64,000 nt of DNA, taken from contig NZ_VCMV01000014.1 of assembly GCF_008757455.1 (NCBI RefSeq), forward strand, positions 124,001 to 188,000, read 5' to 3'. The position numbers and the translations under genes are program-made. Each line of letters opens with the position of its first letter. Within the stretch, counting starts at the first letter, position 1. This document shows, piece after piece, positions 8,597 to 63,380 of the stretch. The DNA is from Microvirga brassicacearum (GTDB lineage: Bacteria; Pseudomonadota; Alphaproteobacteria; Rhizobiales; Beijerinckiaceae). The notes beneath the pieces are model-generated. The model was not told the origin of the DNA, ran no database searches, and worked only from the letters and a program-made list of their open reading frames with translations.

Positions 8597-8653
8597 GATA
8601 GACTCCCAACGTCCCGTCGATCGGTCGCGATCGCGGGCTGATTCTGATTCGGA

Positions 8654-13246: not shown

Positions 13247-13250
13247 GACG

Positions 13251-14633
13251 TCAGGCTCCCATCGCCGGCTCAACGCCGGGCAAGGTTTTGACGAGTTCCC
13301 GGAAGTGGTTTCCGCGAACTTCGAAGTTCGGATATTGATCGAAGGATGCACTCGCCGGCGACAGCAGAACCACCGCCCGGCTCATTTCAGCCGTATCCTG
13401 TGCCGCCTGTTGGACGGCGCGATCGAGCGTACTGCAGAAGACGTGCGGAACGGCGCTGCCGAGCGTCGCTGCGTATTCGTCGGACGCCGCACCGATCAGA
13501 TAGGCCTTGCGGACCTTCGCGAAGTACGGCGCCAGCGCCGTGATGCCGCCTTCCTTCGCCTTGCCGCCCAAAATCCAATAGATGTCGTCAAAGGATTTCA
13601 GCGCCTTCTCGGTTGAATCGGCATTGGTTGCCTTCGAATCGTTGATGAAGAGCACGTGGCCACGACGCGCGATTTCTTCCATGCGGTGAGCAAGACCAGG
13701 AAAGCTGCGTAAAGCGCGCGCGATCGTGACGGTATCGATTCCGGAAAACAGCGCGATGGCAACGGCAGCCGCAGCATTCTGCGCGTTATGATCGCCGCGC
13801 AAGGAGGCGATCCCCGCAAGATCGGCTATCGGAACGGTGCAGCCGTCCCGGTTGGCAAAGATCCGATGCGATTCGGCATAGATGCTGCCACGCTCATGAT
13901 CGGAAAGTCCGACCCGCAGAACCTCGCCCTGGATATGCCCGACGGCAGAGCGAGTCAGGGCATCGTCAACCCCTATCACCACCTTGTCGGCTTTTGCGAT
14001 CAGCCTTTCCTTGATGGCGGCATAGTTCTGTAGGGTGCCATGCCGGTCGAGATGGTCGGGTGAGATGTTGAGCAGCACGCCGATGGTGGGTGCAAGGGAC
14101 GGTGTGAGATCGATCTGGAATGACGAGCACTCGATGACGTGAACACGCTCGTCCGAGGGAGGGGCGAGCGACAGAATGGCGGTTCCGATATTGCCGCCCA
14201 TCTGCACGTCCTGACCGGCCTCGCGCAGGATGTGAGCAACGAGGGCCGTCGTGGTCGATTTGCCGTTTGTGCCGGTGATCGCAATGAAAGGCGCTTTGGG
14301 TGCGATCTTCGCCCGCTCACGGCAGAACAATTCGATATCGCCGATGATCTCGACGCCGGCGGCACGCGCGAGCGGCACCGACCAATGGGGCTGCGGATGG
14401 GTGAGCGGGACTCCCGGGGAAAGGATGAAGCTCGAGAAACGCGACCAATCCGCTTTGCGCAGATCGGCGATTTCGATGCCGTTTGCTTCCGCCTCGGCAT
14501 TCTTTGCCGGGTTGTCGTCGCACGCCACCACCTGGGCGCCGCCCGCCTGCAATGCAAGCGCGGTCGCGAGGCCGGACCCTCCGAGCCCGAAAAGAGCGAC
14601 CGTCTTGCCGGCGAAGATGGTGATTGGCGTCAT
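13251..14633 (-). CDS. murD: UDP-N-acetylmuramoyl-L-alanine--D-glutamate ligase MurD
   Basis: Adds D-Glu to the growing peptide stem. Start ATG 14633 ([16 protein letters not shown]) is four bases after the mraY stop; 460 residues. It shows an N-terminal uracil-binding Rossmann region ([14 protein letters not shown]), the P-loop [15 protein letters not shown], the central [11 protein letters not shown] and the C-terminal [17 protein letters not shown]. An upstream start at 14660 would extend into mraY. Confidence 0.96.
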
Positions 14634-14637
14634 CGGC

Positions 14638-15723
14638 TCACCGCAGCTTGAGGGTTGCAAGGCCGATGAGGGCGAGCACGACGGAAACGATCCAGAACCG
14701 GATGACCACCTGCGGCTCGGTCCAACCGAGTTGCTCGAAATGGTGATGGATCGGCGCCATCTTGAAGACGCGCTTGCCGGTTAGCTTGAAGGACGTGACC
14801 TGGATGATGACCGAGAAGATCTCCAGTACGAACAGCCCGCCGACGATGGCAAGAACGATCTCGTGCTTCGCCGCAACCGCGATGGTACCGAGGAGTCCCC
14901 CAAGCGCGAGCGAACCCGTGTCGCCCATGAAAATCTGGGCGGGCGGCGCGTTGAACCAGAGAAAGCCTAGGCCTGCTCCCATCAATGCGCCGCAGATAAC
15001 CGCAAGTTCGCCGGTGCCGGGCACGAAATGGATCTGCAGGTAATTCGCGAAGACTGCATTGCCCGCCAGGTATGCGATGAAGCCGAAGGTCCCAGCAGCG
15101 ATCATCACCGGAACGATGGCCAATCCGTCGAGGCCGTCGGTGATGTTGACGGCATTGCCCGCGCCTACGACCACGAACGCACCGAAGACGACATAGAACC
15201 AGCCAAGATTGAAAATGAGGTCCTTCGAGAATGGCAGCGCGAGTTTGTTCGCCAGCCCCGGCGTCCCCATGTAGGAAATCGCCATGCAGGCCAAGGCTGC
15301 GATCAACGCTTCGAGCGCGAGCCGCGAGCGGCCGGAGAATCCTTTGTGGGATTGCTTCGTCACCTTGAGAAAGTCGTCGTAGAAACCGATGGCACCGAAG
15401 CCGACGGTGACGAAAAGCACGACCCAGACGTAATGATTGGCAAGATTGGCCCAGAGCAGGGTCGAGACCAGCACCCCGGCGAGGATCATCAGGCCGCCCA
15501 TGGTTGGTGTGCCGCGCTTCGTCAGCAGATGCGATGCGGGGCCGTCCTCGCGGATCGGTTGCCCCTTGCCTTGCTTCAGGCGCAGCATCGAGATGGTCCA
15601 GGGTCCGAACAGAAACACGAACAAAAGCCCGGTCGCAGTGGCGCCGCCGGTCCGAAACGTGATGTACCGGAAGATGTTGAGAGGGCTGAAATAGGGGCTG
15701 AGCTCAGCCAACCAGGTTAACAT
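14638..15723 (-). CDS. mraY: Phospho-N-acetylmuramoyl-pentapeptide transferase MraY
   Basis: Integral membrane enzyme that transfers phospho-MurNAc-pentapeptide to undecaprenyl phosphate, giving lipid I. Start ATG 15723 with AGGA six bases ahead; 361 residues with about ten transmembrane segments. Active-site motifs include [48 protein letters not shown] and [12 protein letters not shown]. Confidence 0.98.
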
Positions 15724-15726
15724 TCT

Positions 15727-17160
15727 CTATCCTTTCAGCGCTGTGGCCGAGTGGCTTGCGCCGTATTTTTCTTTGAGAGCTTTGACGACAAGGGCCATCT
15801 TCATGCTGAGCGACCCCTTCACCATCACGGCGTCGCCGGGGCGAATGGCAGCGCAAACCGCATCGACCAACTCGGCGGAAGAATCGACATGAACGGCCAC
15901 TTTCGCCTTCGGCAGGCGCGCGACAAGATTTTCCATGAGCGGGCCGGCAGCGAAAAGAACATCGATCTGGTTCGTTTCGATCTCCGCCGCGAGTGCCTCA
16001 TGCAGCGCAGGCCCCTCTTTGCCGAGTTCCTTCATGTCGCCCAGCACAGCGATGCGACGTCCTTTGCGATCGAGCTCGACCGCGCCGAGATTTGACAACG
16101 CGGCGCGCACCGAAGCCGGGTTGGCGTTGTAGCTCTCGTCGATCAACAGCGCATCAGCGTCACCAATGGACAGGATCGTGCGTTCTCCACGCCCGACGGG
16201 CGGCTTGAGATCACCGAAAGCAAGCGCGGCCAACGCAATGTCGATCCCCAGCGCGTGCGCCGCCGCCAGCACACTGAGCGAATTCAACGCGATATGACGC
16301 CCGGCAGTCCCGATGCGATAGACGAGCGGCTGACCAAAGATCCGCGCCTCGACCACAGAGGTATCCGGCTTGACGATAATCCGCTCGGCCCGGATATCGG
16401 CCGTCTCGTGCTCGCCGAAGGCGATAACGCGTCCTGCATTCGATGCGAGTGCGTGGGCGCGCAAGCGCTCGAAGTAGGCGTTATCGCGATTAAGCACGGC
16501 GACGCCGCCCGGTTCTATACCGGAGAAAATCTCGCCCTTGGCGTCGGCGATGCCCCACAGGGATGGAAAAAACTCGATATGCACCGGTTCAATAGTGGTG
16601 ATGACGGCCACATGCGGGCGCACCATCGCGGTCAGGGGCAGAATCTCGTGGGCATGGTTCATGCCGATTTCGAAAATCCCGAACTCGGCTTCGCGCGGCA
16701 TGCGCGACAGCGTCAGCGGCACGCCCCAATGGTTATTGTAGGACGCAACGGACGCGTGCGTTTTGCCCTGGCGCGAGAGCGCGATGCGCATCGCTTCCTT
16801 GGTGCCGGTCTTGCCGACAGAGCCGGTGATTGCGACGATCTTCGCCTTGCTGCGCGCCCGTGCGGCGATGCCGAGACGACGCATCGCTTCCAGAACGTCG
16901 GGCACGACGATCAGCCGGTCGGAGCTATTGAACAATGCAGCTTTGTCCGACGACACAATGGCGCCGGCCGCTCCTTTGTCGAGCGCACCTGCCACGAAGT
17001 CGTGCCCGTCATGCACGTCGCCGTTGATGGCGAAGTAAAGATCACCCGGCGCCAGGGTGCGCGTGTCGATGGAGGCTCCCGACGCCGTCACGACGCCGTT
17101 GCCGACGCGCCCACCGGTCGCCGCCTCGATTTCGGATCGCGTCCACAAAGGCCCGCTCAT
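15727..17160 (-). CDS. murF: UDP-MurNAc-tripeptide--D-Ala-D-Ala ligase MurF
   Basis: Adds the D-Ala-D-Ala dipeptide made by Ddl. Start ATG 17160 overlaps the murE stop as ATGA; 477 residues. P-loop VAITGSVGKTGTKEA near residue 110, EIGMNHAHEI in the central domain and DESYNANPASVRAAL at the C-terminal domain junction are the expected motifs. It ends three bases before the mraY start. Confidence 0.96.
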   Translation of the reverse strand: MSGPLWTRSEIEAATGGRVGNGVVTASGASIDTRTLAPGDLYFAINGDVHDGHDFVAGALDKGAAGAIVSSDKAALFNSSDRLIVVPDVLEAMRRLGIAARARSKAKIVAITGSVGKTGTKEAMRIALSRQGKTHASVASYNNHWGVPLTLSRMPREAEFGIFEIGMNHAHEILPLTAMVRPHVAVITTIEPVHIEFFPSLWGIADAKGEIFSGIEPGGVAVLNRDNAYFERLRAHALASNAGRVIAFGEHETADIRAERIIVKPDTSVVEARIFGQPLVYRIGTAGRHIALNSLSVLAAAHALGIDIALAALAFGDLKPPVGRGERTILSIGDADALLIDESYNANPASVRAALSNLGAVELDRKGRRIAVLGDMKELGKEGPALHEALAAEIETNQIDVLFAAGPLMENLVARLPKAKVAVHVDSSAELVDAVCAAIRPGDAVMVKGSLSMKMALVVKALKEKYGASHSATALKG

Positions 17161-18614
17161 CCCGTTATCTCCGCGATGGCAGCCCGGACCTCGTCGTGAT
17201 CCGAGAACGGAAGGGTGCGGTCGCCGATGATCTGGCCGGTTTCATGTCCCTTGCCGGCCACGACGAGAATGTCGCCAGGTTTCAAGTCGCGCACGGCATT
17301 CCGAATGGCGCGCGCGCGATCACCGATCTCGATCGCGCCCGGTGCAGCCTTCATGATGTCCGCACGGATGGCGGCCGGGTCCTCCGAGCGGGGGTTGTCA
17401 TCGGTCACGATCACCACATCGGCTTTCTCGACGGCGATACGGCCCATCAGCGAACGCTTGCCCCTGTCCCGGTCGCCGCCGCAACCGAAGACGCAGACGA
17501 GGCGTCCGCTGGTGAAGGGGCGCAGCGCGTCCAGCACGTGCGCAAGCGCGTCCGGCTTATGCGCGTAGTCGACGATGCAGATGGCGCCGTTGACCTCGCC
17601 GACATTCTCGAGGCGGCCGACAACGCCTTTGAGACGGGACAACCCCTCCAGCACCTTCTGCGCCTGCCCCTCACCTTCAACCGCCAGAACAAGGCCGGCG
17701 GCGAGCAGCGCGTTCTCGACCTGAAATGCGCCCAGGAGCGGAATGGTCGTCTCATAGACGCGTCCGAACGCCTCGACCTTCAGTTTCTGACCGAATCCTT
17801 CGGGCTGCGTCTCCAGAAGCCTCAGCATGTCGCCCGCGCTACCGGTTGTCAGCAGCGTCAATCCACGGCGGCGAATTCCGGCGCGAAAGACGTCCGCATA
17901 GGGTCCGTCGGCGTTGACGATAGCCGGGGCGTCGGCCGGCAGCAGCGTGTCGAAGAGGCGCATCTTGGCAGCCGCATAGGATTCGGTGTTGCCATGGTAA
18001 TCGAGGTGATCGCGCCCAAGATTGGTCACGCCGGCGGTTTTAAGTCGTACCGCATCGAGACGGCGCTGATCGATCCCGTGGGAGGATGCCTCCATGGCCA
18101 GATGGGTGACGCCATCTCGTGCCAGGCGATCAAGCGTCGCGTGGAGCGAAACGGGATCGGGGGTCGTGAGCGAACCGTAAGCGGTGCCGTCCGACGTGAT
18201 GACTCCAAGCGTGCCCAAGCTTGCCGATTTGTGGCCCAGAAGAGCAAAAAGCTGCCTTACAAAATCGGCGACCGAACTTTTTCCGCTCGTCCCGGTCACC
18301 GCCACGATGGTGGCGGGCTGCTGCGGATGGAACTGCGACGCCGCGAAGGCCAGGGCACGACGGACGTCGGGTACGCGGACGTAAGGCAGGTCCGATGGGG
18401 CCTCGGCCTCGCCGACGATTGCGACAGCGCCGGCAGCGACCGCTTGTGAGGCGAAGGCCATGCCGTCGGCTTTCGTGCCCGGCACGGCAAAGAACACCGA
18501 ACCGGGCGAAACCCTTCGGCTGTCGGATGTTATTCCTGAAACCGCCGCCGCCGCATGCGAGGACTGGCATGCCTCGCGGACCAGATCGCAAAGCGTGATC
18601 GTCTCGCCGGCCAT
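17157..18614 (-). CDS. murE: UDP-MurNAc-L-Ala-D-Glu:meso-DAP ligase MurE
   Basis: Adds meso-diaminopimelate. Start ATG 18614 (MAGETITLCDL) shares one base with the ftsI stop (TGATG); 485 residues. The DNPR motif (VTDDNPRSEDP) indicates meso-DAP rather than lysine specificity. P-loop VAVTGTSGKSSVADF and EASSHGIDQRRLD (carbamylated-Lys and Mg region) are present. An upstream in-frame ATG adds five residues inside ftsI. Confidence 0.96.
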   Translation of the reverse strand: MAGETITLCDLVREACQSSHAAAAVSGITSDSRRVSPGSVFFAVPGTKADGMAFASQAVAAGAVAIVGEAEAPSDLPYVRVPDVRRALAFAASQFHPQQPATIVAVTGTSGKSSVADFVRQLFALLGHKSASLGTLGVITSDGTAYGSLTTPDPVSLHATLDRLARDGVTHLAMEASSHGIDQRRLDAVRLKTAGVTNLGRDHLDYHGNTESYAAAKMRLFDTLLPADAPAIVNADGPYADVFRAGIRRRGLTLLTTGSAGDMLRLLETQPEGFGQKLKVEAFGRVYETTIPLLGAFQVENALLAAGLVLAVEGEGQAQKVLEGLSRLKGVVGRLENVGEVNGAICIVDYAHKPDALAHVLDALRPFTSGRLVCVFGCGGDRDRGKRSLMGRIAVEKADVVIVTDDNPRSEDPAAIRADIMKAAPGAIEIGDRARAIRNAVRDLKPGDILVVAGKGHETGQIIGDRTLPFSDHDEVRAAIAEITG

Positions 18615-52294: not shown

Positions 52295-53365
52295 TCAAAG
52301 GGTCGCGATGCGCGTCCCGTGCTCGTCGAAAAGGTGCGACTGCTCCGGCACGGGTCGCAGCGCGATCGCATCGCCCGGCCGCAAGGTCACGCGTTCCCGC
52401 AGCACAACGGTGAGGCTTCCGCCCTCCGCCTTGACGATCAAGGTCGTGTCGAGCCCTGTCGGCTCGATGACCGCGACCACCGCGGGGATCGTTCCCGGCG
52501 TCCCGGCGGGTGCGAGCTGCAGATGCTCCGGCCTGATGCCGTATGTCAGCTTGCTACCATTCGCGGCGGGCGGCTGATGGTGGAGGGCGAGAACGGCGCC
52601 GCTCGGTAACGCGAGTCCAGCATCCGACAGGGTTCCGTCGATGAAATTCATCGCGGGAGAACCGATGAAACCCGCGACGAAGCGGTTCCGCGGGCGGTCA
52701 TAAAGCTCCAATGGCGCGCCGACCTGTTCGACGATGCCGTCATGCATCACGACGATCTTGTCGGCCATCGTCATTGCTTCGATCTGGTCGTGCGTCACAT
52801 ACACGGTCGTGGTCTTCAGGCGTTGGTGGAGCTCCTTGATCTCGGCCCGCATGGCAACGCGCAGCTTTGCGTCGAGGTTCGAAAGAGGCTCGTCGAAGAG
52901 GAAAACCTGCGGGTCGCGTACGATAGCCCGCCCCATTGCCACCCGCTGCCGTTGGCCGCCCGACAATTGGCGGGGATAGCGATCAAGCAGATCCGTAAGG
53001 CCAAGCGAGGCGGCCGCATCGCCCACTCGCTTCTGCTGCTCCGCCTTGGGGGCGCCCTTCAGCTTGAGCGAGAACGCCATGTTGTCGGCCACCGTCATGT
53101 GCGGATAGAGCGCGTAGCTCTGGAACACCATGGCGATATCGCGGTTCTTCGGCGGGACGTCGTTGATGAGGCGATCTCCGATGCGGATCTCTCCCGATGT
53201 GACATCCTCCAGCCCCGCGATCATGCGCAGAAGCGTCGACTTTCCGCAGCCGGACGGGCCGACGAGAATGACGAATTCGCCGTCCGCAATGTCGACATCG
53301 ACACCTTTGATGATCGAAACCGGCCCGAAGGATTTCCGGATTTCGCGGATCGACACATTCGCCAT
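52295..53365 (-). CDS. Sugar ABC transporter ATP-binding protein (UgpC/MsmK type)
   Basis: 356 residues from ATG 53365 with GGAG six bases ahead. Walker [10 protein letters not shown] near residue 37, signature [16 protein letters not shown], Walker [16 protein letters not shown], and a C-terminal OB/TOBE regulatory domain (about 240-350). Typical CUT1 ATPase; works with the two permeases and binding protein that follow upstream in the same cluster, separated from them only by nanE. Confidence 0.93.
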
Positions 53366-53398: not shown

Positions 53399-54100
53399 TC
53401 AGGAAGCGTCGTCGTTAGGTGCGCTCGCCCAGGGTGCCGCGGCCTCGACAAACTTCCGGGTGATCTCGCGCGGGTTGGTGATCGCCGTACCGACCACCAC
53501 CGCGTGTGCGCCTCGCTTGAACGCCTCCGCGACTAGCTGAGGCGTGTCGAAGCGACCTTCGGCCACCACCGGCCCTTCGCCGATGGCGACCAAGACAGAC
53601 AGAAGCTCGAGGTCAGGCCCGGCATCTCTGCTTGCTGCCGTCTCTTCCGTGTAACCGGACAGGGTCGTGGCGATGTAGGTTGCGCCGGCAGCGCGGGCCG
53701 CCCTGCCCTCCTCGAGCGTGGCGACATCCGCAAAAACCTCCCGTCCGAGCTCCTGCCGGATGCGGGCGATCAACTGATCAACCGGTTCACCATCACGGGG
53801 CCGCCTAGTCGCGTCGACGCCGATGATATCGGCACCGGCCCGCGCAATGCGCGCCGCGGCGCTGAAATTGGGCGTGATGTAGACAGGGAAGCGATCGTCC
53901 CAGACTTTGTCGATGCCGATGATTGGATGCGTGCTGATCGCCCGGATGGCCGCCACGTCCTCGGCGCCGTTCGCCCGAAAGCCCGCGGCACCGCCCGCGG
54001 TCGCGGCGCGGGCCATGGCGGACATGAAGATGGGACCGTGGAGCGGATTATCCGCCCTGGCCTGACAGGAAACGATCAGTGCGCCCTTGGGGATCAACAT
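53399..54100 (-). CDS. nanE: Putative N-acylglucosamine-6-phosphate 2-epimerase NanE
   Basis: TIM-barrel epimerase that converts ManNAc-6-phosphate to GlcNAc-6-phosphate. 233 residues from ATG 54100 with AGGAGA ahead. LIVSCQARADNPLHGP, GFRANGAEDVAAIR, PIIGIDK, IIGVDATRRPRDGE, ADVATLEEGRAARAAGATYIATTLSGYT and VVAEGRFDTPQ are the NanE motifs. No NanK kinase or NanA lyase of clear type is linked, so the imported sugar may be a phosphorylatable amino sugar other than sialic acid. Confidence 0.92.
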   Translation of the reverse strand: MLIPKGALIVSCQARADNPLHGPIFMSAMARAATAGGAAGFRANGAEDVAAIRAISTHPIIGIDKVWDDRFPVYITPNFSAAARIARAGADIIGVDATRRPRDGEPVDQLIARIRQELGREVFADVATLEEGRAARAAGATYIATTLSGYTEETAASRDAGPDLELLSVLVAIGEGPVVAEGRFDTPQLVAEAFKRGAHAVVVGTAITNPREITRKFVEAAAPWASAPNDDAS

Positions 54101-54110
54101 GCGACGTCTC

Positions 54111-54953
54111 CTACTTCACGGCTCCGGCTGTCATGCCCTGAATAAACTGGCGTGACAACGCGATGTAGAGAAGCGTGATGGGGGCGGCCGCAATCGTGAG
54201 ACCGGCAAACAGCATGCCCCAATCGGTGGTATACTCACCCATGAAGGTCGTCAAACCCTGCGGCAGCGTCTTGTAGGCGTCTGTCTGGATGAACACGAGC
54301 GGGAAAAAGAAGTCATTCCAGATCGGCACCGCGTTCTGGATCGCCGCAATGGCCATGGGCGGCAGTGCCAGGGGCAGCATCACCGACCACATAATCCGCG
54401 GCTCGGACGCCCCGTCGATCCGCGCCGCATCCTCCAATTCGGCCGGCAGCGAGCGCAGGAACCCCGCCATGATGAACACGGCCGATGGCAACCCGATGGC
54501 CGTGTAGGTGACGATCAGGCTCCAACGGCTGTCCAGCAGGCTCAGGTCCCGCAGCAGAATGAACAGCGGGATGACCGCAAGCTTCAGCGGCAGCATCAGC
54601 CCGGCAAGAAAGAACAGCAGAATGAAAGTGTTCGTGCGCGACTCGTATCGAGCAATCGCATACCCCGCCATCGTGCCGAGCACGATAATGAGGACGATGG
54701 ACGTGCCGGTGACGACGATCGAATTCATGAAATAGGTTGGCATCGAGGTCTCGCCGAGCACGCGCGCGAAGTTCTGAACCTGCGTGAAATTCGGAATCGC
54801 AAACGGATGCTCGAAGATTTCAGCCGTGCTCTTGAAGGCCGAAAAGATCATCACGACTACGGGATAGAGCATGATGAACGAGTTCGCGATCAGCACGATC
54901 TGCACCAGAAACGCGAACGAGATGGGCCGGGACGAGGCGGGAGCGGTGCTCAA
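54111..54953 (-). CDS. Sugar ABC transporter permease (CUT1, MalG/UgpE type)
   Basis: 280 residues from TTG 54953, which overlaps the stop of the upstream permease (TTGA) and has GGGAG eight bases ahead. A GTG at 54980 is the alternative and lacks a Shine-Dalgarno. Six membrane segments; EAA loop ELEDAARIDGASEPRIMWSVMLPL in its usual place. Confidence 0.92.
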   Translation of the reverse strand: MSTAPASSRPISFAFLVQIVLIANSFIMLYPVVVMIFSAFKSTAEIFEHPFAIPNFTQVQNFARVLGETSMPTYFMNSIVVTGTSIVLIIVLGTMAGYAIARYESRTNTFILLFFLAGLMLPLKLAVIPLFILLRDLSLLDSRWSLIVTYTAIGLPSAVFIMAGFLRSLPAELEDAARIDGASEPRIMWSVMLPLALPPMAIAAIQNAVPIWNDFFFPLVFIQTDAYKTLPQGLTTFMGEYTTDWGMLFAGLTIAAAPITLLYIALSRQFIQGMTAGAVK

Positions 54954-55882
54954 AACTGAATCTCCCGACGCCGCAGCCACAAAGTGAGCATCGAGGCGAA
55001 AACGACGATGAAGAGGAAGATCAGCGTCGCAAGAGCCGACCCTTCGCCGAAATTCTGGATGCTCGCGCTCTGATTGCCGAAAGCCGTGCGGTAGAACACA
55101 AGGCCGAGCACATCGGTGTTCCCGAACGGCGATCCATCAAGCCCGGCCATTACGTAAGGAATTTCGAACCAGTTGAACGCGCCGATGAACAACAGGGTGA
55201 ACAGGATCGTCGTGCTGGGAGCAACGAGCGGCCAGATGATGGACTTGAGAAGTTGCCACTCGCTCGTGCCGTCGAGGCGCGCGGCCTCGATAATCTCAGA
55301 GGGGATGCGCTGCATGCCCGCGAGGTAGACCAGCGTCGGGAACCCGATGAAATGCCACGCATTGGCGAGGATCAACGCCCCGAGCGCGGTCGACGGATCG
55401 CCAAGCCAGGGCCTGGCGAAAGCGCCGAGCCCGACCGAAAGCAGCGCCTGGTTCACGAGGCCGAAATTCGGGTTGAGAAAGAGTTTCCAGAGGAAGCCCA
55501 CGATGATCGTGGAAAGAACCACCGGCACGAACACGGCAACGCGATGAAACCGGAAGCCGAACGGCTCCTTGTAGAGCAGCCAGGCCAGCAGGAACCCGCC
55601 GCCATTCTGGATGATCATCAGGGCAATAAGCGCCTGAACGTTGTTCAGAAACGCGTTCCACACCACCGGCGCCATGGTGGCGCCAAACAGCACGTCGCGG
55701 AAATTTGCCAGACCGATAAACTCGCCGCGCGCCAGCCCGCGCCATTCATAGAACGCATAAGCGAAGGCCGACAGGATCGGATACACCACGAACAGCGACA
55801 TGAAGACGATCGGCGGGAGGACGAGAAAAGCCACCCAACTGCGATGCTTCAGCGTGCGGGCCTGTTTCGGCGAGACGGGCAT
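54950..55882 (-). CDS. Sugar ABC transporter permease (CUT1, MalF/UgpA type)
   Basis: 310 residues from ATG 55882 (MPVSPKQARTLKHRS). Six membrane helices and the EAA motif EIIEAARLDGTSEWQLLKSIIWPL. The frame stays open further upstream across a hairpin and into the binding-protein gene's 3' flank, but that part has no permease-like sequence. Confidence 0.92.
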   Translation of the reverse strand: MPVSPKQARTLKHRSWVAFLVLPPIVFMSLFVVYPILSAFAYAFYEWRGLARGEFIGLANFRDVLFGATMAPVVWNAFLNNVQALIALMIIQNGGGFLLAWLLYKEPFGFRFHRVAVFVPVVLSTIIVGFLWKLFLNPNFGLVNQALLSVGLGAFARPWLGDPSTALGALILANAWHFIGFPTLVYLAGMQRIPSEIIEAARLDGTSEWQLLKSIIWPLVAPSTTILFTLLFIGAFNWFEIPYVMAGLDGSPFGNTDVLGLVFYRTAFGNQSASIQNFGEGSALATLIFLFIVVFASMLTLWLRRREIQF

Positions 55883-55987
55883 GGGCTGAGCCTTGAAAGC
55901 GTGATCCGGCGGAGGGCACCGGTTCGACGTAGAAACGGCAAAACAATCCTTCCGAGCGGGCTTGAGTTTCGATGAAACGAACCAGCA

Positions 55988-56020
55988 CGAAGAAAGGCGG
56001 CGAGCCCATGCCCGCCGCCT
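55988..56020 (-). terminator. Hairpin after the sugar-binding protein gene, probable attenuating terminator
   Basis: On the minus strand AGGCGGCG (56020-56013) pairs with CGCCGCCT (56002-55995) around a 10-base loop, followed by TTCTTCG. It starts nine bases after the binding-protein stop and about 106 bases before the permease start. Such hairpins let binding proteins be made in excess over permeases. Confidence 0.65.
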
Positions 56021-56028
56021 CAAGGATG

Positions 56029-57276
56029 TTACTTCTGGAACGGCTTGTAGTAGGTCGCGATACCCTTGTTGATCTCGGCCGCGGCCTGCTCCGGCGTCTG
56101 CTGTCCGGCGAGCATTTTCTGCACATTCGACTGCAGCAGAACCGATCCGCTCGGCTCCTGATAACGGAAGCGCACGAGCATGAGATAGGACATCGAGTTG
56201 TCGGCCAGCTTCGCCACTTCCTGGGTCAGCGGATCCTCGATCTTGATGCCCTTGATCGGCGACAGATTCTTGAGCGCGTTCGTGAAGGCAGTGCCGTATT
56301 CGGGCGTTGCAAGGAAGCGCACGAATTTGAGCGCCGCGTCCGTCTTGTCCGACTTGGCGTTGACCGCGTATCCGCCATCGTAATAGCGCGCGATCAGCCG
56401 CTCATCGCCCGGCTTTGCCACCGGCGAAGCGAAGACGCCGAGATCGAGAGCGGGGTTTTGCGCCTTGAAGTTCGCGACCTCGAAGGACCCGCCCGCAAAC
56501 ATCGCCGCGCGACCTGCCGCAAAGAGTTGCTGCGAAGACGCATAATCGACGCCGATGAAATTCGGCGCGAAGTACTGGCTGATGTCCTTGAGCTTCGAGA
56601 GAGCGTTGACATAACGCGGATCGGTGAAATTCGCCTTGCCCGACGCGATGTCCTCCTCGAACTGTTTGCCGAGCATCGACGAGAGCAGGGCCGCCACAAT
56701 CGTCTCGTTCTGCCACGCGGTCGCGGTGCCGTTGGCAAACGGCGTGACGTTCTTCGCCTTCAGCGCCGCACTCAGCGCGATCAATTCATCCCAGGTCTGT
56801 GGCGGCTTGACGCCCGCGTCAGCGAAGATCTTCTTGTTGTAGATGACCAACATGGTTTGCGTCGCAAACGGCACCGCATAGACCTTGCCGTCGGAGCGCA
56901 AAGTCTCTGCCGCGAGCGCCGGCTCCGGGAAATTTGCAAGCTCAGGCACAGTCTGCTTGTCGAGCGCCAGCAGGTAGCCCGGCGCCGCGATCGTCTCGAG
57001 ATTTCCATAGGCACGAGCCTGGATGACGTCCGGGCCACGGCCGGCAGCGAGCGCGGTGGACAGGATGGTCTGGTAGTTTTCAGGTGCGTAGGTTTCGAAC
57101 TTTACCGAAATCTCCGGCTCTTTCTCCTGAAACTTCTTGATGATTTCGTTGTAGAAAGCCTTGTCTTCCTGCCGCCAACTCCAGAAGGTCAGCTCGGTCT
57201 TGGCCATCGCGGCACCGGCCGAGAGAAGATAGCCGCCCATGGCGACGCCCATCATCATTCGTCTTGTCAATTTCAT
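56029..57276 (-). CDS. Sugar ABC transporter substrate-binding protein (family 1)
   Basis: 415 residues from ATG 57276 (MKLTRRMMMGVAMGG), with GGGAG six bases ahead. Signal peptide with two Arg at residues 5-6 and a cleavage region GAAMAK. KTELTFWSWRQEDKAFYNEIIKKF, ALAAGRGPDVIQARAYGN, PFATQTMLVIYNKKIFADAG and AAMFAGGSFEVANF match CUT1 binding proteins. The ligand is not predictable from sequence. Confidence 0.92.
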   Translation of the reverse strand: MKLTRRMMMGVAMGGYLLSAGAAMAKTELTFWSWRQEDKAFYNEIIKKFQEKEPEISVKFETYAPENYQTILSTALAAGRGPDVIQARAYGNLETIAAPGYLLALDKQTVPELANFPEPALAAETLRSDGKVYAVPFATQTMLVIYNKKIFADAGVKPPQTWDELIALSAALKAKNVTPFANGTATAWQNETIVAALLSSMLGKQFEEDIASGKANFTDPRYVNALSKLKDISQYFAPNFIGVDYASSQQLFAAGRAAMFAGGSFEVANFKAQNPALDLGVFASPVAKPGDERLIARYYDGGYAVNAKSDKTDAALKFVRFLATPEYGTAFTNALKNLSPIKGIKIEDPLTQEVAKLADNSMSYLMLVRFRYQEPSGSVLLQSNVQKMLAGQQTPEQAAAEINKGIATYYKPFQK

Positions 57277-57351
57277 CGTCAGCTCCCTCATTGTTGCAGT
57301 CTCCTCCGTCACACCGCCAGCCGGTCTTTGCCTTGCTGTCCGGAATTCAAT

Positions 57352-58218
57352 TTACGCTTCCACTTCGAGCACCAGAACCGTGGCGTCATCGTGCGTTTTA
57401 ACACGCGGAAAGTTGGCCGCCATGCTGTCCCGGCGCTCGAGATCTCGCAACTCTGCCATCAGGCTGGCTCCCCTGCCCTCCGCGAGGGCGGCATACAGGT
57501 CGGCATCCGTATAGGCGCCGAACACATCGGTGAGCCGCATGAATCCGTCGGTGGCGAGAACAACGGGCTGGCCGGGTTTGATCCTCGCCTCAAAGGTCAG
57601 TTCGCGCCCCGCCCAGGGTCGTTGGGGCTGGACCACCCAATATCCGTCCGGGCGATTGAGCTGCCGGCGATTTTCAAGAATTTGCAGCCTGACCGCCTCC
57701 GGCAGGAGCCCCGGTTCCGACCGGCCTGAGAGGTCCAGAGAGGCCAATGTGCGTTTCTCGAATGGCTTTGCCCGCTCGTCGGTCCAGCGGACGATGCCGC
57801 CTGCCGTCGGCACGAGGGCCACCACGTCGCCAAGCAAAGCCCCATGAAGAAGGAGCCCTTCGCTATCGGCCAGGAGCGCGAGCAGCCCGAGGCAGGCCGC
57901 CGGGCCTGGATCGGCGTCCGGGATCGCCGGCGCGAGGCCTTGAAAAGCGGCCGCCACCGCCGATTCGAGTGTCGCCAGGACCGCGCCGATGGAGGTTCCT
58001 GCAACCGTCAGTCGGCTGAGGCTCGCGCCGATAGTGTTGGCAAGCCATGCGGCATCGCTAGGCCCCGGGGTTGCTTTCCCGCCGGAAACCCCCGTCGCGC
58101 CATCGACGATCCACCCATACCCTGCATGCAGACCACACAGATCCTCGTTGACACGGGATCCGGGGTCCGACTGCCGGTAAAGGGACCGGAAGTGCCTATG
58201 AGGACCAGTTTCGCTCAC
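57352..58218 (-). CDS. PP2C-like protein phosphatase heading the sugar/NanE cluster
   Basis: 288 residues. GTG 58218 is the only start candidate between an in-frame TGA upstream and the domain. Metal-binding PP2C motifs are present: SRVNEDLCG near residue 24, GWIVDGATGV near 37, LLGDVVALV, VVLATDGFMRLTD near 220 and HDDATVLVLEV at the C-terminus. It is a compact soluble domain without sensor or membrane parts. It precedes the sugar-binding protein gene by 75 bases. Its target is unknown; a phosphoprotein or a small phosphorylated molecule are both possible. No kinase gene is nearby. Confidence 0.85.
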   Translation of the reverse strand: MSETGPHRHFRSLYRQSDPGSRVNEDLCGLHAGYGWIVDGATGVSGGKATPGPSDAAWLANTIGASLSRLTVAGTSIGAVLATLESAVAAAFQGLAPAIPDADPGPAACLGLLALLADSEGLLLHGALLGDVVALVPTAGGIVRWTDERAKPFEKRTLASLDLSGRSEPGLLPEAVRLQILENRRQLNRPDGYWVVQPQRPWAGRELTFEARIKPGQPVVLATDGFMRLTDVFGAYTDADLYAALAEGRGASLMAELRDLERRDSMAANFPRVKTHDDATVLVLEVEA

Positions 58219-58261
58219 GCTTAACTGGTCTCATATTGGTCGCACGCTGTCCATAGTGGTC
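58203..58261 (-). promoter_or_regulatory. TGGTC half-site cluster and inverted repeat at the start of the PP2C gene
   Basis: GACCAGTT (58203-58210) and AACTGGTC (58223-58230) form a perfect 8-base inverted repeat with a 12-base centre that contains the GTG start codon. Further TGGTC copies start at 58237 and 58257. TGGTC half-sites are typical of FadR-type GntR regulators. The same repeat could fold in mRNA and hold the start codon in its loop. No regulator gene is encoded close by. Confidence 0.5.
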
Positions 58262-58327
58262 TTAGGTGCTTTTCAACACCATTCAGATGCCGCTCGCGCC
58301 AAATCAGCCCAGAAAGCGCCCCTTCGC

Positions 58328-58888
58328 CTAGTGCTCTTTGTCGACGACTGCGGACATCCGATCGACGAAAGCAATGCCCAGAGCGGAAAGGATGAAGACG
58401 GTATGGATGACGGTCTGCAGGATGACCCCCGTTTCCGTGTAATTGGTTTTGCCCGCCATTCCGATATTTCCCGCCTCGATGAAGGTCCGGAGCAGGTGGA
58501 TCGACGAGATGCCGATGATGGCCATCGCCAGCTTGATCTTCAGTACGCTGGCGTTCACGTGGCCAAGCCATTCCGGCTGATCCGGATGTCCGTGGAGCTG
58601 CAGTCGCGACACGAACGTCTCGTAGCCGCCGATGATGACCATCATGAGCAGGTTCGAGATCATCACGACGTCGATCAGGCCCAGGACCAGCAGCATGATC
58701 TGCTGCTCGGAAAAATTCGCCGCGTGCGTCACGAGGTGCCAGAGTTCCTTCAGGAACAAGAACACATAGACGCCTTGCGCCACTATAAGGCCGAGATAAA
58801 GCGGCAACTGAAGCCAGCGCGAGCTGAAGATGAGCGCAGGCAGCGGCCTCAAGGGTGACGCCATAGGGGGTTTGCGGAGTTGCGACAT
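58328..58888 (-). CDS. YqhA-family (UPF0114) membrane protein
   Basis: 186 residues from ATG 58888 (MSQLRKPPMASPLRP); an ATG eight codons later is possible. Three to four membrane helices (LYLGLIVAQGVYVFLFL, IMLLVLGLIDVVMISNLLMMVIIGGYETFVSRL, TVIHTVFILSALGIAFVDRM). The YETFVSR and HPDQPEWL-type segments match YqhA. Function unknown. A divergent promoter region of about 230 bases separates it from the DapA-like gene. Confidence 0.85.
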   Translation of the reverse strand: MSQLRKPPMASPLRPLPALIFSSRWLQLPLYLGLIVAQGVYVFLFLKELWHLVTHAANFSEQQIMLLVLGLIDVVMISNLLMMVIIGGYETFVSRLQLHGHPDQPEWLGHVNASVLKIKLAMAIIGISSIHLLRTFIEAGNIGMAGKTNYTETGVILQTVIHTVFILSALGIAFVDRMSAVVDKEH

Positions 58889-59124
58889 GTGAGGTTTTCC
58901 AGCGAGAACGGCTGAGACAGCCGGACAATAAGGACTGCCCCTACACGCCTTTTGGCCGATGGTGAAGCAACGTCGATTCAACCACCCGCTGCAACTCGCT
59001 CCGCGCCGTTATCTTTATTATCCTCCCATACGGTGCCTGAGCGCATGATCGAGGCGGCAAGCAGCCCTTTTTCTGGCGAGCCAAACATGTCATGTGCTCC
59101 CAGATTCAAACCGTGAGAAAACGA

Positions 59125-60060
59125 ATGCCGCTGAGCCAGACCTCCGAGGGCGTCTACGCCATTGCTCCGACGCCGTTTCATGAAGACGGCCGCATCGACG
59201 ACGTGTCGCTTGACCGGATGACGGATTTCTACGCCGAGGCAGGCTGCACCGGCATCACGGTGCTCGGCATCATGGGCGAAGCGCCCAAGCTCGAGGCACA
59301 GGAAGGCTTGAGCATCGCGACGCGGATGATCAGGCGGGCGAAATCGCTCCCGATCGTGGTGGGCGTTTCGGCGCCCGGTTTCGCGGCGATGCGCGCCCTC
59401 ACCCATCAGGTCATGAACGAGGGGGCGGCCGGGGTGATGATCGCTCCGCCCCCGCATCTGCGCACCGACGATCAGATCGTGGGATATTTCCGGCAGGCGA
59501 TCGAGGCGATCGGCGCAGACGTGCCCTGGGTCCTGCAGGATTATCCGCTGACCTTGAGTGTGGTCATGACGCCCGGCGTCATCCGCCGCATCGTGGAGGA
59601 GATTCCGTCCTGCGTGATGCTCAAGCATGAGGACTGGCCCGGACTCGAGAAAATCTCGGCCCTGCGCAAATTTCAGCGTGAAGGAACGATGCGCCCTCTC
59701 TCGATCTTGACCGGCAACGGGGCTTTGTTCCTCGATTTCGAGATGGAACGTGGGGCTGACGGCGCCATGACTGGCTATGCCTTCCCCGATATGCTGGCCG
59801 ATGTGGTCAGGCTCTCGAAAGCCGGTGACCGGGATGCCGCTCACGATCTCTTCGACGCCCACCTGCCGCTGATTCGCTATGAACAACAGCAGGGCGTCGG
59901 GCTCGCGATCCGCAAGTACGTCATGAAACGGCGCGGGATCCTGGCAAGCGACGCCCAGCGGGCTCCAAATATCGGCCTCACATCGAAAGCGATCGAGGAG
60001 GTCGAATACCTCCTGTCCCGCGTCGGACGCATCGACAGGCGCGCCCTCCTCGCAGCATGA
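59125..60060 (+). CDS. DapA-superfamily aldolase/dehydratase lacking the canonical Tyr
   Basis: 311 residues from ATG 59125 (MPLSQTSEGVYAIAPTPF); an ATG at 59092 is possible. Class I TIM barrel: Schiff-base Lys in CVMLKHED near residue 160. The GxxGE loop reads GIMGEAPKLEAQE, not GTTGE. Where DHDPS has LYNVPxR, this enzyme reads LQDYPLT, so the catalytic Tyr and carboxylate-binding Arg are replaced. It is therefore unlikely to be lysine-pathway DapA; a 2-keto-3-deoxy sugar acid dehydratase or aldolase role is plausible. Stands alone on the plus strand. Confidence 0.82.
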   Translation: MPLSQTSEGVYAIAPTPFHEDGRIDDVSLDRMTDFYAEAGCTGITVLGIMGEAPKLEAQEGLSIATRMIRRAKSLPIVVGVSAPGFAAMRALTHQVMNEGAAGVMIAPPPHLRTDDQIVGYFRQAIEAIGADVPWVLQDYPLTLSVVMTPGVIRRIVEEIPSCVMLKHEDWPGLEKISALRKFQREGTMRPLSILTGNGALFLDFEMERGADGAMTGYAFPDMLADVVRLSKAGDRDAAHDLFDAHLPLIRYEQQQGVGLAIRKYVMKRRGILASDAQRAPNIGLTSKAIEEVEYLLSRVGRIDRRALLAA

Positions 60061-60070
60061 CGCCTAGGAA

Positions 60071-60107
60071 TTAGACGGCGAGGCCACACCTATGACGCCT
60101 CGTCTAA
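60071..60107 (+). repeat. Inverted repeat after the DapA-like gene
   Basis: Arms 60071-60084 and 60097-60107 (TTAGA..CGAGGC and GCCTCGTCTAA) pair over 11 bases with a 3-base bulge and a 12-base loop, starting 11 bases after the stop. No T-run follows on either strand. Possibly a weak or Rho-assisted terminator. Confidence 0.4.
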
Positions 60108-60150
60108 GGGGATAAGAACCTGAGCCTTGCGCATCGCGTGGCCAACCCTT

Positions 60151-60185
60151 ATATCGCCGATATGGTTAGGATGCTACATATATGT
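60151..60185 (+). promoter_or_regulatory. Two palindromes at the marR start, probable autoregulatory operators
   Basis: ATATCG-c-CGATAT (60151-60163) and ACATATATGT (60176-60185, overlapping the ATG at 60182) are AT-rich palindromes in a GC-rich setting, directly before the marR-emrB-emrA cassette. MarR proteins bind such sites in their own promoters. Confidence 0.5.
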
Positions 60186-60634
60186 CAGCTATAGATATGC
60201 TCCCATCAGATCTACGGACCCTCTTCTCCGACGAATTGTCGATCGTGAGCCGAAAGATCAGGACGTTGTTCGACGCACGTGTGAAGCGCATCGGGCTCAC
60301 GCTCGCCCGGGCCCGGCTTCTCCGGCACGTGTCGCAGGTCGACGGCATGACTCAGACCGAACTGGCCGAGATGCTGGAGGTCGAGAGCCCGACGCTCGTG
60401 AGACTGCTCGACGGACTGGAAAAGCAGGACCTGATCAAACGCTGCCCGGTCGAGGGCGACCGCCGGGCAAAACACATCCTCCTCACCGAGAACGGCCTTG
60501 CCCAGGCGGCCGCGGTCGCGCGCATCGCGGAGGAAGTGCGCGCGGAGATCCTTGACGATGTTTCCGAAGCCGACCTGACCTCCGCCATCCGGGTGTTTCG
60601 TCACATCGGCAAAAACATCGAAGCGACCCGATAG
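60182..60634 (+). CDS. MarR-family transcriptional regulator
   Basis: 150 residues. Winged helix-turn-helix region MTQTELAEMLEVESPTLVRLLDGLEKQDLI (about 57-87) followed by the wing CPVEGDRRAKHILLTENG with the conserved DRR. Dimerisation helices at both ends. It precedes the MFS efflux gene by eight bases and most likely represses the cassette until a phenolic or drug-like ligand binds. Confidence 0.93.
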   Translation: MSAIDMLPSDLRTLFSDELSIVSRKIRTLFDARVKRIGLTLARARLLRHVSQVDGMTQTELAEMLEVESPTLVRLLDGLEKQDLIKRCPVEGDRRAKHILLTENGLAQAAAVARIAEEVRAEILDDVSEADLTSAIRVFRHIGKNIEATR

Positions 60635-60642
60635 GACGCTCC

Positions 60643-62298
60643 GTGTCCAACCCAGAACAACGCGACCCGGCGAGCGCCACAGTTGGAAGCGCGGTTCCCG
60701 CTCCGCAAACATCCGCGCTGCCGCCTTCCATGTCGTTGCTGCGCGTCTCCAGCTACGTCCTCGCGGCAGTGCTTCTTGCCCTGACCCAGGGCCTTGGCAT
60801 GAACCTCATCTCGGCGAACCTGCCGCAGATCCAGGGGGGTCTCGGCGCGACGTCGACGGAAGCCACATGGCTCATCGCGGTCTACATGGCGCCCAATGTC
60901 AGCCTCTCTCTTATGCTGATCAAGATCCGCACCCAATTCGGCCTTCGCAACTTCGCCGAACTCAGCATTCTGGCGTTCGTTGTGGTCTCGTTGATGCATC
61001 TGTTCGTCGACGATCTGCAATCGGCCATCATCGTGCGCTTCTTCAGCGGCGTCGCGGCGGCTCCGCTTTCGTCGCTCGCCTTCCTCTATATGCTGGAACC
61101 CTTTCCGCCTGCGAAGAAGCTCAATCTCGGGCTTTGCCTCGCGCTGACCAATATCTCGCTCGGCGCGCCGATCGCCCGGCTGATCTCGCCGGCTCTTCTC
61201 GATATCGGGCAATGGCACGGCCTTTATCTCATGGAACTCGCGATCGCCCTCATGGCGTTCGCAACCGTGTACCTGCTGCCCCTGTCGCCGCAGCCACGCG
61301 CAAAAGTGATCCACTGGCTCGACATCGTGAGCTACATTTTCATCGCGGTCGGGTTCGGCCTCATTGCCATGGTGCTGGTTCTGGGCCGCGTTTATTGGTG
61401 GATCGAAGCACCCTGGCTCGGTGTCATGCTGGCGGTCGCGATCGCGTCGGTCACATGCGCCGTCATCATCGAGCTCAACCGGCAAAGCCCGCTCGTCGAC
61501 ATTCGTTGGCTGACAAGCCGTGAGGTTCTTCACTTCACCGGTGCGCTTCTGGTCTTCCGGGTCGTCCTGTCGGAGCAGACGAGCGGCGCCTACGCGTTCT
61601 TCCAGGTCCTGGGGTTGCAGAATGCGCAGACGGCCACCCTCTCCTGGGTGATCCTGGGAGCGACGTTGGCCGGCGGATCGATCTGCGCGGCCGTACTGAA
61701 ACCAGGGCGCGAGCCCGCAATCCACATGATGGCTCTGTCGCTTTTGATCGCCGGCGCCTATCTCGACAGCCATGCGACCAACCTGACACGACCGGTTCAG
61801 ATGTATGGCAGCCAGGCCATGATCGCCTGCGCGGGCGCATTGTTCCTGCCGCCCGCGATGGCGTCGGGCTTGATGTCGGCCCTGAAGAAAGGTCCGAACT
61901 ACATCCTCAGCTTCATCATCGTATTCCTGACGACGCAAAGCATCGGCGGCGTTCTCGGCTCCGCTGTCGTCGGCACGTTCGTAACGTGGCGTGAGAAGGT
62001 CCATTCGCACGCTCTCGTGGAGCATATTGCGCTCACCAATCCGATTGTCGCAAAACAGATCGGCCAACTTGCCGGCGTCTTTGCCCGCGTTCACACCGAC
62101 CTCGCCATGCACAACGCCGAGGGTATCGCCCTTCTCGGCCAACAGGCCACACGCGAGGCCTACGTCCTGGCCTACAACGACGCCTTTCTCCTCATCGCCG
62201 TGCTGAGCGCCTTCGCCCTGGCTGCTCTCGTCATCCATGTGTCGGTGGTCGCAATCGGGCGGCGTATGTCGGCCGTTTCTCAACCCGCGTTCTCGTAA
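60643..62298 (+). CDS. emrB: MFS efflux transporter, EmrB/DHA2-like
   Basis: 551 residues from GTG 60643 with AGGACG ahead. About 12-14 membrane helices; MNLISANLPQIQGGLGATSTEATWLIAVYMAPNV is the DHA2 helix 1-2 region, and a long periplasmic loop lies near the C-terminus (SHALVEHIALTNPIVAKQIG). Together with the EmrA-like gene it forms an inner-membrane pump and adaptor; no TolC-type gene is linked. Confidence 0.9.
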   Translation: MSNPEQRDPASATVGSAVPAPQTSALPPSMSLLRVSSYVLAAVLLALTQGLGMNLISANLPQIQGGLGATSTEATWLIAVYMAPNVSLSLMLIKIRTQFGLRNFAELSILAFVVVSLMHLFVDDLQSAIIVRFFSGVAAAPLSSLAFLYMLEPFPPAKKLNLGLCLALTNISLGAPIARLISPALLDIGQWHGLYLMELAIALMAFATVYLLPLSPQPRAKVIHWLDIVSYIFIAVGFGLIAMVLVLGRVYWWIEAPWLGVMLAVAIASVTCAVIIELNRQSPLVDIRWLTSREVLHFTGALLVFRVVLSEQTSGAYAFFQVLGLQNAQTATLSWVILGATLAGGSICAAVLKPGREPAIHMMALSLLIAGAYLDSHATNLTRPVQMYGSQAMIACAGALFLPPAMASGLMSALKKGPNYILSFIIVFLTTQSIGGVLGSAVVGTFVTWREKVHSHALVEHIALTNPIVAKQIGQLAGVFARVHTDLAMHNAEGIALLGQQATREAYVLAYNDAFLLIAVLSAFALAALVIHVSVVAIGRRMSAVSQPAFS

Positions 62299-62315
62299 GT
62301 TCGAAGTCAAACATC

Positions 62316-63380
62316 ATGATCGCCAAGTTCTTCAAATCAACCACCACCCTCCTTGCCTGCCTCGTCGGCCTCGCGGGCGTTTTTCTTGTTCTCTATGCAT
62401 GGCGCCTGCCACCATTCAGCAGCGCCATCGAGACGACGGACAACGCTTATGTGCGCGGGCAGGTCGTTGTCATCAGTCCGCAACTCGCAGGCTACGTGGT
62501 CGAGGTGGCGGTCCAGGATTATCAGCCGGTCAAGGCGGGGCAAATGCTGGTTCGGATCGACGATCGGATTTTTGAACAACGACACCAGCAAGCCCGAGCA
62601 ACTCTCGCGGCGCAACAGGCCGCCTTGGCAAATTCCGAACAGAAGCGCCGCTCGGACGAGGCCCGCATCAAATCCAGCCAGGCGCAGGTCGACAGCGCGC
62701 AAGCGGCTTTCACGGCGGCTGAAGCCAATTGGGGGCGCATCGAACCGCTTCTCCAGCGCGGCGTGACAACGCAAAGCCAGGCGGACCAAAGCCGATCCGC
62801 GCGCGATCAGGCGGCCGCGGCGTTGAGCCAGGCACAAGCGGCGCTGGAAGTGTCGCGGCAGGATCTGGCAGCGACGATCGTCAGCCGGCAATCGTTGGAA
62901 GCTGCCGTCGAAGGCGCCGAGGCGGCTGTTCACCTTGCCGAGATCGATCTGCAGAACACCCGCATCGTTGCGCCCGAGGACGGACGGCTCGGCGAAGTCG
63001 GCGCCCGGCTGGGGCAATACGTCTCGGCCGGCACGCAACTTCTTACAGTCGTGCCGAAGCGGTTCTGGGTCGTGGCAAATTTCAAGGAAACACAGCTCGC
63101 CGGCATGAAGGTGGGTCAGCCGGCGACATTTGCGGTCGACGCCTTGCCCGATGAGTCTTTGCGTGGGCATATCGAGCGCTTCTCGCCCGCAACCGGATCG
63201 GAATTCAGTGTGCTGAAGGCCGACAACGCCACCGGCAACTTCACAAAAGTTGCGCAACGGCTTCCGGTGCGCATTGCCATTGATCCCGGTCAGGAACTGG
63301 CAAACCGCCTCGCGCCGGGAATGTCGGTGGTGGTCAGCATCGACACCACAGCCTCGGCGGAGCGCCCGGTCATGCAGTGA
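62316..63380 (+). CDS. emrA: EmrA-like HlyD-family membrane fusion protein
   Basis: 354 residues. One N-terminal membrane helix (TLLACLVGLAGVFLVLYAW), then TTDNAYVRGQVVVISPQLAGYVVEV, a coiled-coil hairpin rich in Gln/Ala (about 90-190) and the second lipoyl half IVAPEDGRLGEVGARLGQYV, ending in a beta-barrel. It lies 17 bases after emrB. A palindromic intergenic element follows at its 3' end. Confidence 0.92.
   Translation: MIAKFFKSTTTLLACLVGLAGVFLVLYAWRLPPFSSAIETTDNAYVRGQVVVISPQLAGYVVEVAVQDYQPVKAGQMLVRIDDRIFEQRHQQARATLAAQQAALANSEQKRRSDEARIKSSQAQVDSAQAAFTAAEANWGRIEPLLQRGVTTQSQADQSRSARDQAAAALSQAQAALEVSRQDLAATIVSRQSLEAAVEGAEAAVHLAEIDLQNTRIVAPEDGRLGEVGARLGQYVSAGTQLLTVVPKRFWVVANFKETQLAGMKVGQPATFAVDALPDESLRGHIERFSPATGSEFSVLKADNATGNFTKVAQRLPVRIAIDPGQELANRLAPGMSVVVSIDTTASAERPVMQ

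Follow-up and report, generated by a model that had tools for sequence, protein, structure and literature searches.

Why should a PP2C phosphatase belong to an amino-sugar regulon? This question is raised by a 64-kb window (the whole stretch of DNA analyzed here, from contig NZ_VCMV01000014.1) of a Microvirga genome, G000, that comprises 5.2 Mb in 82 contigs. The feature under study is a minus-strand cluster that, as a first-pass annotation had described, is headed by a PP2C-like gene followed by a CUT1 sugar importer and the epimerase NanE, in the order PP2C, substrate-binding protein (SBP), permease, permease, NanE, and ATPase. The GTG at 58218 that this annotation had named as the PP2C start codon is indeed the earliest start codon in its frame, and homologs across the genus start at the same place. 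On the basis of sequence comparisons, we consider it probable that the PP2C leader is a NagQ-type operator that would place the PP2C-importer-NanE operon in the regulon for N-acetylglucosamine (GlcNAc) and N-acetylmuramic acid (MurNAc). This interpretation assigns an orphan phosphatase and a CUT1 importer to GlcNAc/MurNAc recovery, a named pathway, by way of a testable control site; it also singles out a clear regulator candidate, encoded at a distant locus, and makes predictions for inducer and cargo.

An ortholog of the PP2C protein (55–64% identity) is found in 47 of 48 Microvirga genomes, our own included, and the sole genome without it, G007, also has no close copy of the SBP (best E 2e-11). 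Gene order was compared in 20 related loci from the named collection, all of them Microvirga. PP2C adjoins the SBP gene in every one and NanE follows in 19 (the remaining contig ends), so that the expected association of PP2C, importer, and NanE is borne out; MsrP lies downstream in 19 loci and the upstream UPF0114 gene is kept in one. The conserved unit is therefore PP2C-SBP-permeases-NanE. As a side observation, the ATPase gene beside NanE is missing in five of the 19 complete loci (L045, L046, L048, L052, and L053), where an ATPase of 35–39% similarity is encoded a few kb further on and the importer may borrow one.

Outside Microvirga, a weak PP2C match appears in two of 53 related genomes, and a close SBP is present in 13 of 249 genomes of the order, again counting our own. 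Among nine other SBP loci that we read, one from another family (G668, locus L145) has PP2C directly before SBP-permeases-NanE-kinase. This cluster shares the order PP2C-SBP-permease-permease-NanE with the window (PP2C 40% and SBP 60% identical) but differs in having a BadF-type kinase gene after it and in standing behind beta-lactamase-like and peptide ATP-binding cassette (ABC) genes in a muropeptide-type locus. Importer-NanE-kinase-MurQ clusters of other Hyphomicrobiales (L146–L150) likewise have the SBP and permeases of the window (50–69% identity) and NanE in five of five cases, whereas they carry a BadF-type kinase and MurQ in all five, an RpiR-type gene in three, and no PP2C match at E 1e-4. 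AnmK was confirmed in L147 and the RpiR-type regulator in L148 and L149.

The PP2C leader is conserved in a way that its surroundings are not. All 47 genomes share the block TAAGACCA(G/C)TATGGACA-N4-GCGACCAATATGAGACCAGT at fixed spacing, and the core, reading ACTGGTCTCATATTGGT(C) on the other strand, is exact over its first 17 bases in 46 of them. Core columns carry about 2 bits compared to about 0.2 for the flank from -90 to -46, so this conservation is not due to chance. The TGGTC copies noted earlier at 58237 and 58257 are present and are kept across the 47 genomes, whereas the upstream flank varies. The 16-mer GACCAATATGAGACCA occurs once per genome in 36 of 48, always beside PP2C. A search for the element outside the genus gave, besides G000, exact GACCANTATGRGACCA matches in two of 347 genomes of the order (reversed-pattern control: 2), which we attribute to chance because both lie inside one homologous coding gene in the open reading frame (ORF) lists. 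A short upstream ORF in the leader (ATG GAC ... TGA) was also rejected, its ATG being ATA in nine of 47 genomes, and an Rfam search of 57000–59200 gave no match at gathering score, only mir-128 on the plus strand far below threshold.

Since the L146–L150 importer clusters carry NanE, a BadF-type kinase, and MurQ, we examined the murQ locus of G000 (L166), and 41 of the 48 Microvirga genomes were covered at this locus. There, a beta-lactamase-like gene, murQ, and a BadF-type kinase gene diverge from a peptide-type importer, with nagK, a GntR gene, nagB-II, and nagA following; none of these genes is present in the stretch taken from G007. Of 40 genomes, 36 have a gap of anmK size, with the ORF read in two of them and confirmed as AnmK in one; in G000, G001, G010, and G043, the corresponding gap is too small to accommodate anmK. 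We note that L166 (G000:C15:152000-170000) at 6358–17282 and its counterparts L178–L217 except L199 form a muropeptide-sugar locus with ultra-conserved intergenic blocks.

Across 40 genomes, the anmK/importer region holds a AGTGGTATGATATTGGACC-like site and the murQ leader a ACTGGNCCTATANTGGTCT-like site. The nagK leader, scanned because the DNA before gntR is coding sequence of the preceding gene, has ACTGGATATTAAGTGGCAT-like sites in 20 of 20 genomes read. The sites at the PP2C, anmK, murQ, and nagK promoters all follow TGG-N8-TGG if single departures in the first TGG are allowed. A matrix made from the PP2C leaders, run over 40 murQ loci (396 kb), placed its top match between bla and murQ in 34, ahead of the peptide SBP gene in three, and elsewhere in three (G007 among these). 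With a matrix of anmK, murQ, and nagK sites, in turn, the PP2C site is the top match of the 64-kb window (16.9, the runner-up scoring 10.9) and of all 20 related loci, and 100 column-permuted controls score the leader at no more than 10.4.

Beyond the genus, this three-promoter matrix test is not circular. In another family, its top matches in L146 (22.0) and L147 (24.2) lie 30–60 bp before the ATPase gene of an operon that runs ATPase-SBP-permease-permease-NanE-kinase-MurQ, so that these two operons share with the window a tandem site placed before the operon; L147 has a second strong match (21.5) beside peptide ABC genes, and in L126, the best three matches fall before nagK and murQ. The same scan found no such site in the RpiR-bearing L148–L150 (best 10.9–12.6) and none in L130 (10.9). 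The tandem TGG sites at L147 7333–7366 and 3119–3141 and at L146 7348–7370 are very strong, and L147 shows three half-sites in a row (matches at 7333 and 7344). Together with the placement of PP2C in G668, the sites of L146 and L147 raised our confidence both in the operator and in a working role for the phosphatase in amino-sugar recovery.

The regulator linked to nagK, encoded at L166 16485–17282, a locus away from the PP2C cluster, has GntR and UTRA domains, and its best NCBIfam matches are HutC-type families, below cut-off. Two papers describe NagQ, which controls GlcNAc genes in alpha- and betaproteobacteria and belongs to the HutC subfamily, as having tandem sites, direct TGGTATT repeats, that are unusual for the family (PMC5343134, PMC4494728). 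The Microvirga gene matches this picture in encoding a HutC-subfamily GntR protein together with nagA and nagB/nagK: as in the NagQ regulon portrayed there (PMC5343134, PMC4494728), it lies beside nagK, nagB-II, and nagA, and the PP2C, anmK, murQ, and nagK promoters carry tandem rather than palindromic operators. Compared with the published sites, the half-site is ACTGGT/TTGGTC instead of TGGTATT and the Microvirga set also covers the PP2C-CUT1-NanE operon and anmK/murQ; site by site, the anmK copy TGGTATGATATTGG is close to TGGTATT, while PP2C sites read TGGTC and murQ sites TGGWC/TGGTC. In G362, from another family, a 56% identical regulator resides in a nagK-gntR-nagB-nagA operon whose leader before nagK, TGGTATCTAAGTGGCATT, reads TGG-TATCTAAG-TGGCATT and is almost the Microvirga nagK site.

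The first-pass annotation had proposed repressor control at the start codon as one of two options, had pointed to TGGTC half-sites as known for FadR-type GntR proteins, and had noted that no regulator gene is nearby. A GntR-type repressor is still the likeliest binder, though probably a HutC-type, NagQ-like one encoded at another locus rather than a FadR-type protein. FadR-type GntR sites are palindromes, TGGT-N(0-3)-ACCA, and the unit kept in the leader is a direct repeat without this arrangement. The remark about regulator genes holds for the cluster itself, but a MarR gene lies about 2 kb off at 60182–60634 on the plus strand, next to an MFS gene (Pfam).

Conservation of the cluster and its gene order, conservation of the operator, and the motif shared by the four promoters are direct observations, and we propose the following mechanism to connect them. 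The tandem TGG(T) half-sites 11 bp apart, with an extra half-site 20 bp further upstream, would form a transcriptional operator that overlaps the candidate -10/promoter and the 5' end of the transcript. The HutC-type GntR protein from the nagK-gntR-nagB(II)-nagA operon would bind there and repress, and its release may come from an amino-sugar phosphate, for example GlcNAc-6-P or GlcN-6-P. PP2C, the CUT1 importer, and NanE would thereby be switched together with anmK/murQ and nagKBA for the recovery of cell-wall amino sugars, and the importer most likely takes up an amino sugar derived from chitin or from turnover of the cell wall.

Several results weigh against this interpretation. The cluster itself has no regulator gene, and no sigma-70 consensus promoter scored in our promoter scan, leaving the -10/-35 assignment weak. 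Species of one genus are not independent, and the matrix tests within Microvirga are partly circular because it was the PP2C element that led to two of the other sites: 3-mismatch matches to it occur at 17 places (against 8 for the reversed-pattern control), among them the anmK site, and the murQ site came from the PP2C matrix. With a nagK-only matrix, the PP2C site drops to rank 605 in the window, and with an anmK-only matrix to rank 8, while over 140 kb of the own genome, the PP2C matrix gives two matches above the anmK site that lie away from regulon promoters. In NCBIfam, the regulator, NagB-II, and NagK all score below their cut-offs, and nagA is above one. The PP2C leader of G668 has no tandem site; the best promoter-placed site there, TCATTGGTATCATACCGGTCTAG (10.8, rank 2), lies at the divergent head of the locus, with a 12.5 match elsewhere in the cluster. 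Of eight distant PP2C relatives examined, only two are found by amino-sugar or CUT1 genes and six have no amino-sugar genes by eye; at one locus, G089, PP2C diverges from a CUT1 SBP gene and a scan with the three-promoter matrix found no tandem site.

Three other readings of the leader have to be weighed, two of which concern the inverted repeat around the PP2C start. As described earlier, GACCAGTT and AACTGGTC stand at 58203–58210 and 58223–58230 with GTG 58218 in the 12-base centre; this is the sole inverted repeat detected in 58180–58320 and the sole such pair with 4–20 bp spacing in the genome. Selection nevertheless does not keep it as a unit but maintains the upstream tandem pair and the extra half-site instead. 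The inverted ACTGGYC in codons 4–6 could serve as a further half-site of the same operator through cooperative binding or looping, which would be compatible with NagQ-type control. It has the half-site sequence of the tandem site, and the rare Thr codon ACT is used at codon 4 in 41 of 46 cases, as against 16 of the 216 later Thr codons of 20 PP2C genes, a bias that points to some constraint at the DNA level. On the other hand, ACTGG is absent in nine of 47 genomes and the spacing of 14 or 15 bp tracks the reading frame and not the helix, so that we regard this role as conceivable but lean against it.

It is unlikely that the shared operator serves another binder of direct repeats, be it an RpiR/MurR relative, a FadR-type GntR protein such as NanR, or a regulator of the OmpR type. 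The importer-NanE clusters L148–L150 do carry an RpiR/MurR-type gene (L148 by NCBIfam, L149 by Pfam, L150 by eye), but these RpiR loci have no tandem site, and no RpiR gene is seen among the listed ORFs of the two loci with the site, L146 and L147. The RpiR homologs of G000 are only 24–30% identical, the best (C54) lying by peptide ABC genes, and one set of sites precedes nagK-gntR-nagB-nagA, the position required if the GntR of this operon regulates itself. NanR is a FadR-type protein and its regulon includes nanE. E. coli NanR is reported to bind GGTATA repeats (PMC8012715), likewise a repeat operator of a GntR-family amino-sugar regulator, though its spacing and sequence differ from the Microvirga site and the candidate here is HutC-type.

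The mRNA hairpin that had been suggested to control PP2C translation around the GTG start is very improbable: the window leader does fold at -23.2 kcal/mol (z -3.1), with the stem in predicted folds of four of eight species (window, L035, L037, and L040) and ACTGG in codons 4–5 kept in 38 of 47 genomes along with the rare ACT codon, but the seven other species range from z -2.0 (a different fold) to +1.9, the right arm more commonly reads ACTGGCC than ACTGGTC and thus gives an A-C mismatch, the left arm is unchanged where the right arm is lost so that nothing covaries, and G002 keeps the tandem site without either GTG or right arm. Neither the eight folds nor the 47 leaders show stem conservation or covariation at the start codon, and from the variable spacing, the uncompensated left arm, and a fold that is exceptional only in the window, we conclude that the hairpin is not the conserved feature and is not supported as a general mechanism.

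With NagQ-type control as the preferred reading, what surprises is how steadily PP2C is included in an amino-sugar operon. PP2C genes occur in amino-sugar operons of at least three lineages: in Microvirga, in G668 before the same importer, and in G362, where the last gene of the nag operon is a PP2C relative coupled to nagA by overlap that is 27% identical to the window protein and passes Pfam PP2C_2 (33 vs 24). We tentatively suggest, while thinking it more probable that the answer lies elsewhere, that PP2C is a regulated working part of cell-wall amino-sugar recovery that would be made on induction and either dephosphorylate the importer or a sugar kinase or strip the phosphate from an amino-sugar intermediate. 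The available text of the literature searched holds no report of a PP2C in an amino-sugar regulon, and the sole paper there that combines Microvirga and PP2C concerns strawberry.

A PPM/PP2C fold of the window protein is supported by modeling: AlphaFold2 on a 20-row alignment predicted a PP2C-like fold (mean pLDDT 82, pTM 0.85), and Foldseek matched this model to PP2C structures, best to PstP 1txo (E 7e-10). By sequence, the protein stays below the Pfam cut-off for PP2C and for SpoIIE (SpoIIE 22 bits vs 25), a profile search of PDB sequences gave only an unrelated best hit (E 0.12), and at E <= 0.1, SpoIIE is found in 15 and PP2C_2 in one of 20 orthologs. The metal motifs NED, DGATG, GD, TDG, and DDAT are all present, as had been stated. 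D26, D39, D131, and D277, which we take to be aspartates of the PP2C metal-site motifs, are invariant in 20 of 20 aligned orthologs and D224 in 19. The protein thus resembles PPM/PP2C phosphatases such as PstP, tPphA, and Stp1 in fold and metal-site motifs but differs from them in falling below Pfam thresholds, in having no partner kinase in its cluster, and in that the Arg preceding NED varies among its orthologs. The TDG Asp is Ala in the PP2C of M. aerophila (L045), so this ortholog may be impaired. A plasmid search gave seven records of at most 32% identity. A PP2C paralog, L086 8150–9397 (G000:C34), lies near ssb and uvrA and stands apart with 26% identity to the window protein; its relatives in L129 and L131 are near ssb, uvrA, and a gyrA-like gene. 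Coordinates of the cluster and leader features are compiled in the table.

Table. Features of the PP2C-importer-NanE cluster and its leader in the window.
Feature	Positions	Strand	Basis
PP2C-like phosphatase gene, operon head, GTG start	57352..58218	-	ORF, ortholog alignment, fold model
CUT1 SBP, ORF from GTG, true start probably later	56029..57312	-	Pfam SBP_bac_1
CUT1 permease 1, ORF as listed	54950..56023	-	NCBIfam sugar permease matches, below cut-off
CUT1 permease 2	54111..54980	-	NCBIfam sugar permease matches, below cut-off
NanE, ManNAc-6-phosphate 2-epimerase	53399..54100	-	Pfam NanE 170 bits; NF002231 above cut-off
MalK-type importer ATPase	52295..53365	-	adjoins NanE in 14/19 complete genus loci
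Tandem operator ACTGGTCTCATATTGGTC, ACTGGTC-TCATA-TTGGTC (TGG repeated after 11 bp), proposed NagQ-type site	58224..58241	+	conservation and matrix
Second conserved block GACCACTATGGACA with extra TGGTC half-site at 58257-58261	58248..58261	-	distance to tandem site fixed in 47/47
Candidate -10 hexamer TATGGA, low confidence	58250..58255	-	TATGGACA in 36/47, TATAGACA in 9/47 (TATAGA)
Candidate -35 GTTGAA, low confidence	58272..58277	-	inference; TGTGAA-like block at same distance in most of 47 genomes
Inverted ACTGGTC half-site in PP2C codons 4-6, right arm of inverted repeat	58203..58209	-	ACTGG 38/47, ACTGGYC 29/47, ACTGGTC 7/47

Elsewhere in G000, the stretch L085 (G000:C15:40000-59999) holds one 3-mismatch site, inside a listed ORF, and at 9361–11785 a second nanE that is accompanied by a kinase-like and a GntR gene of its own and lies next to peptide-type ABC genes. 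From 59092 to 63380, the plus strand of the window comprises a DHDPS-family gene followed by MarR, MFS, and HlyD-type genes, an arrangement that, among the 20 loci, is found upstream of the PP2C cluster elsewhere only in L035 (M. antarctica).

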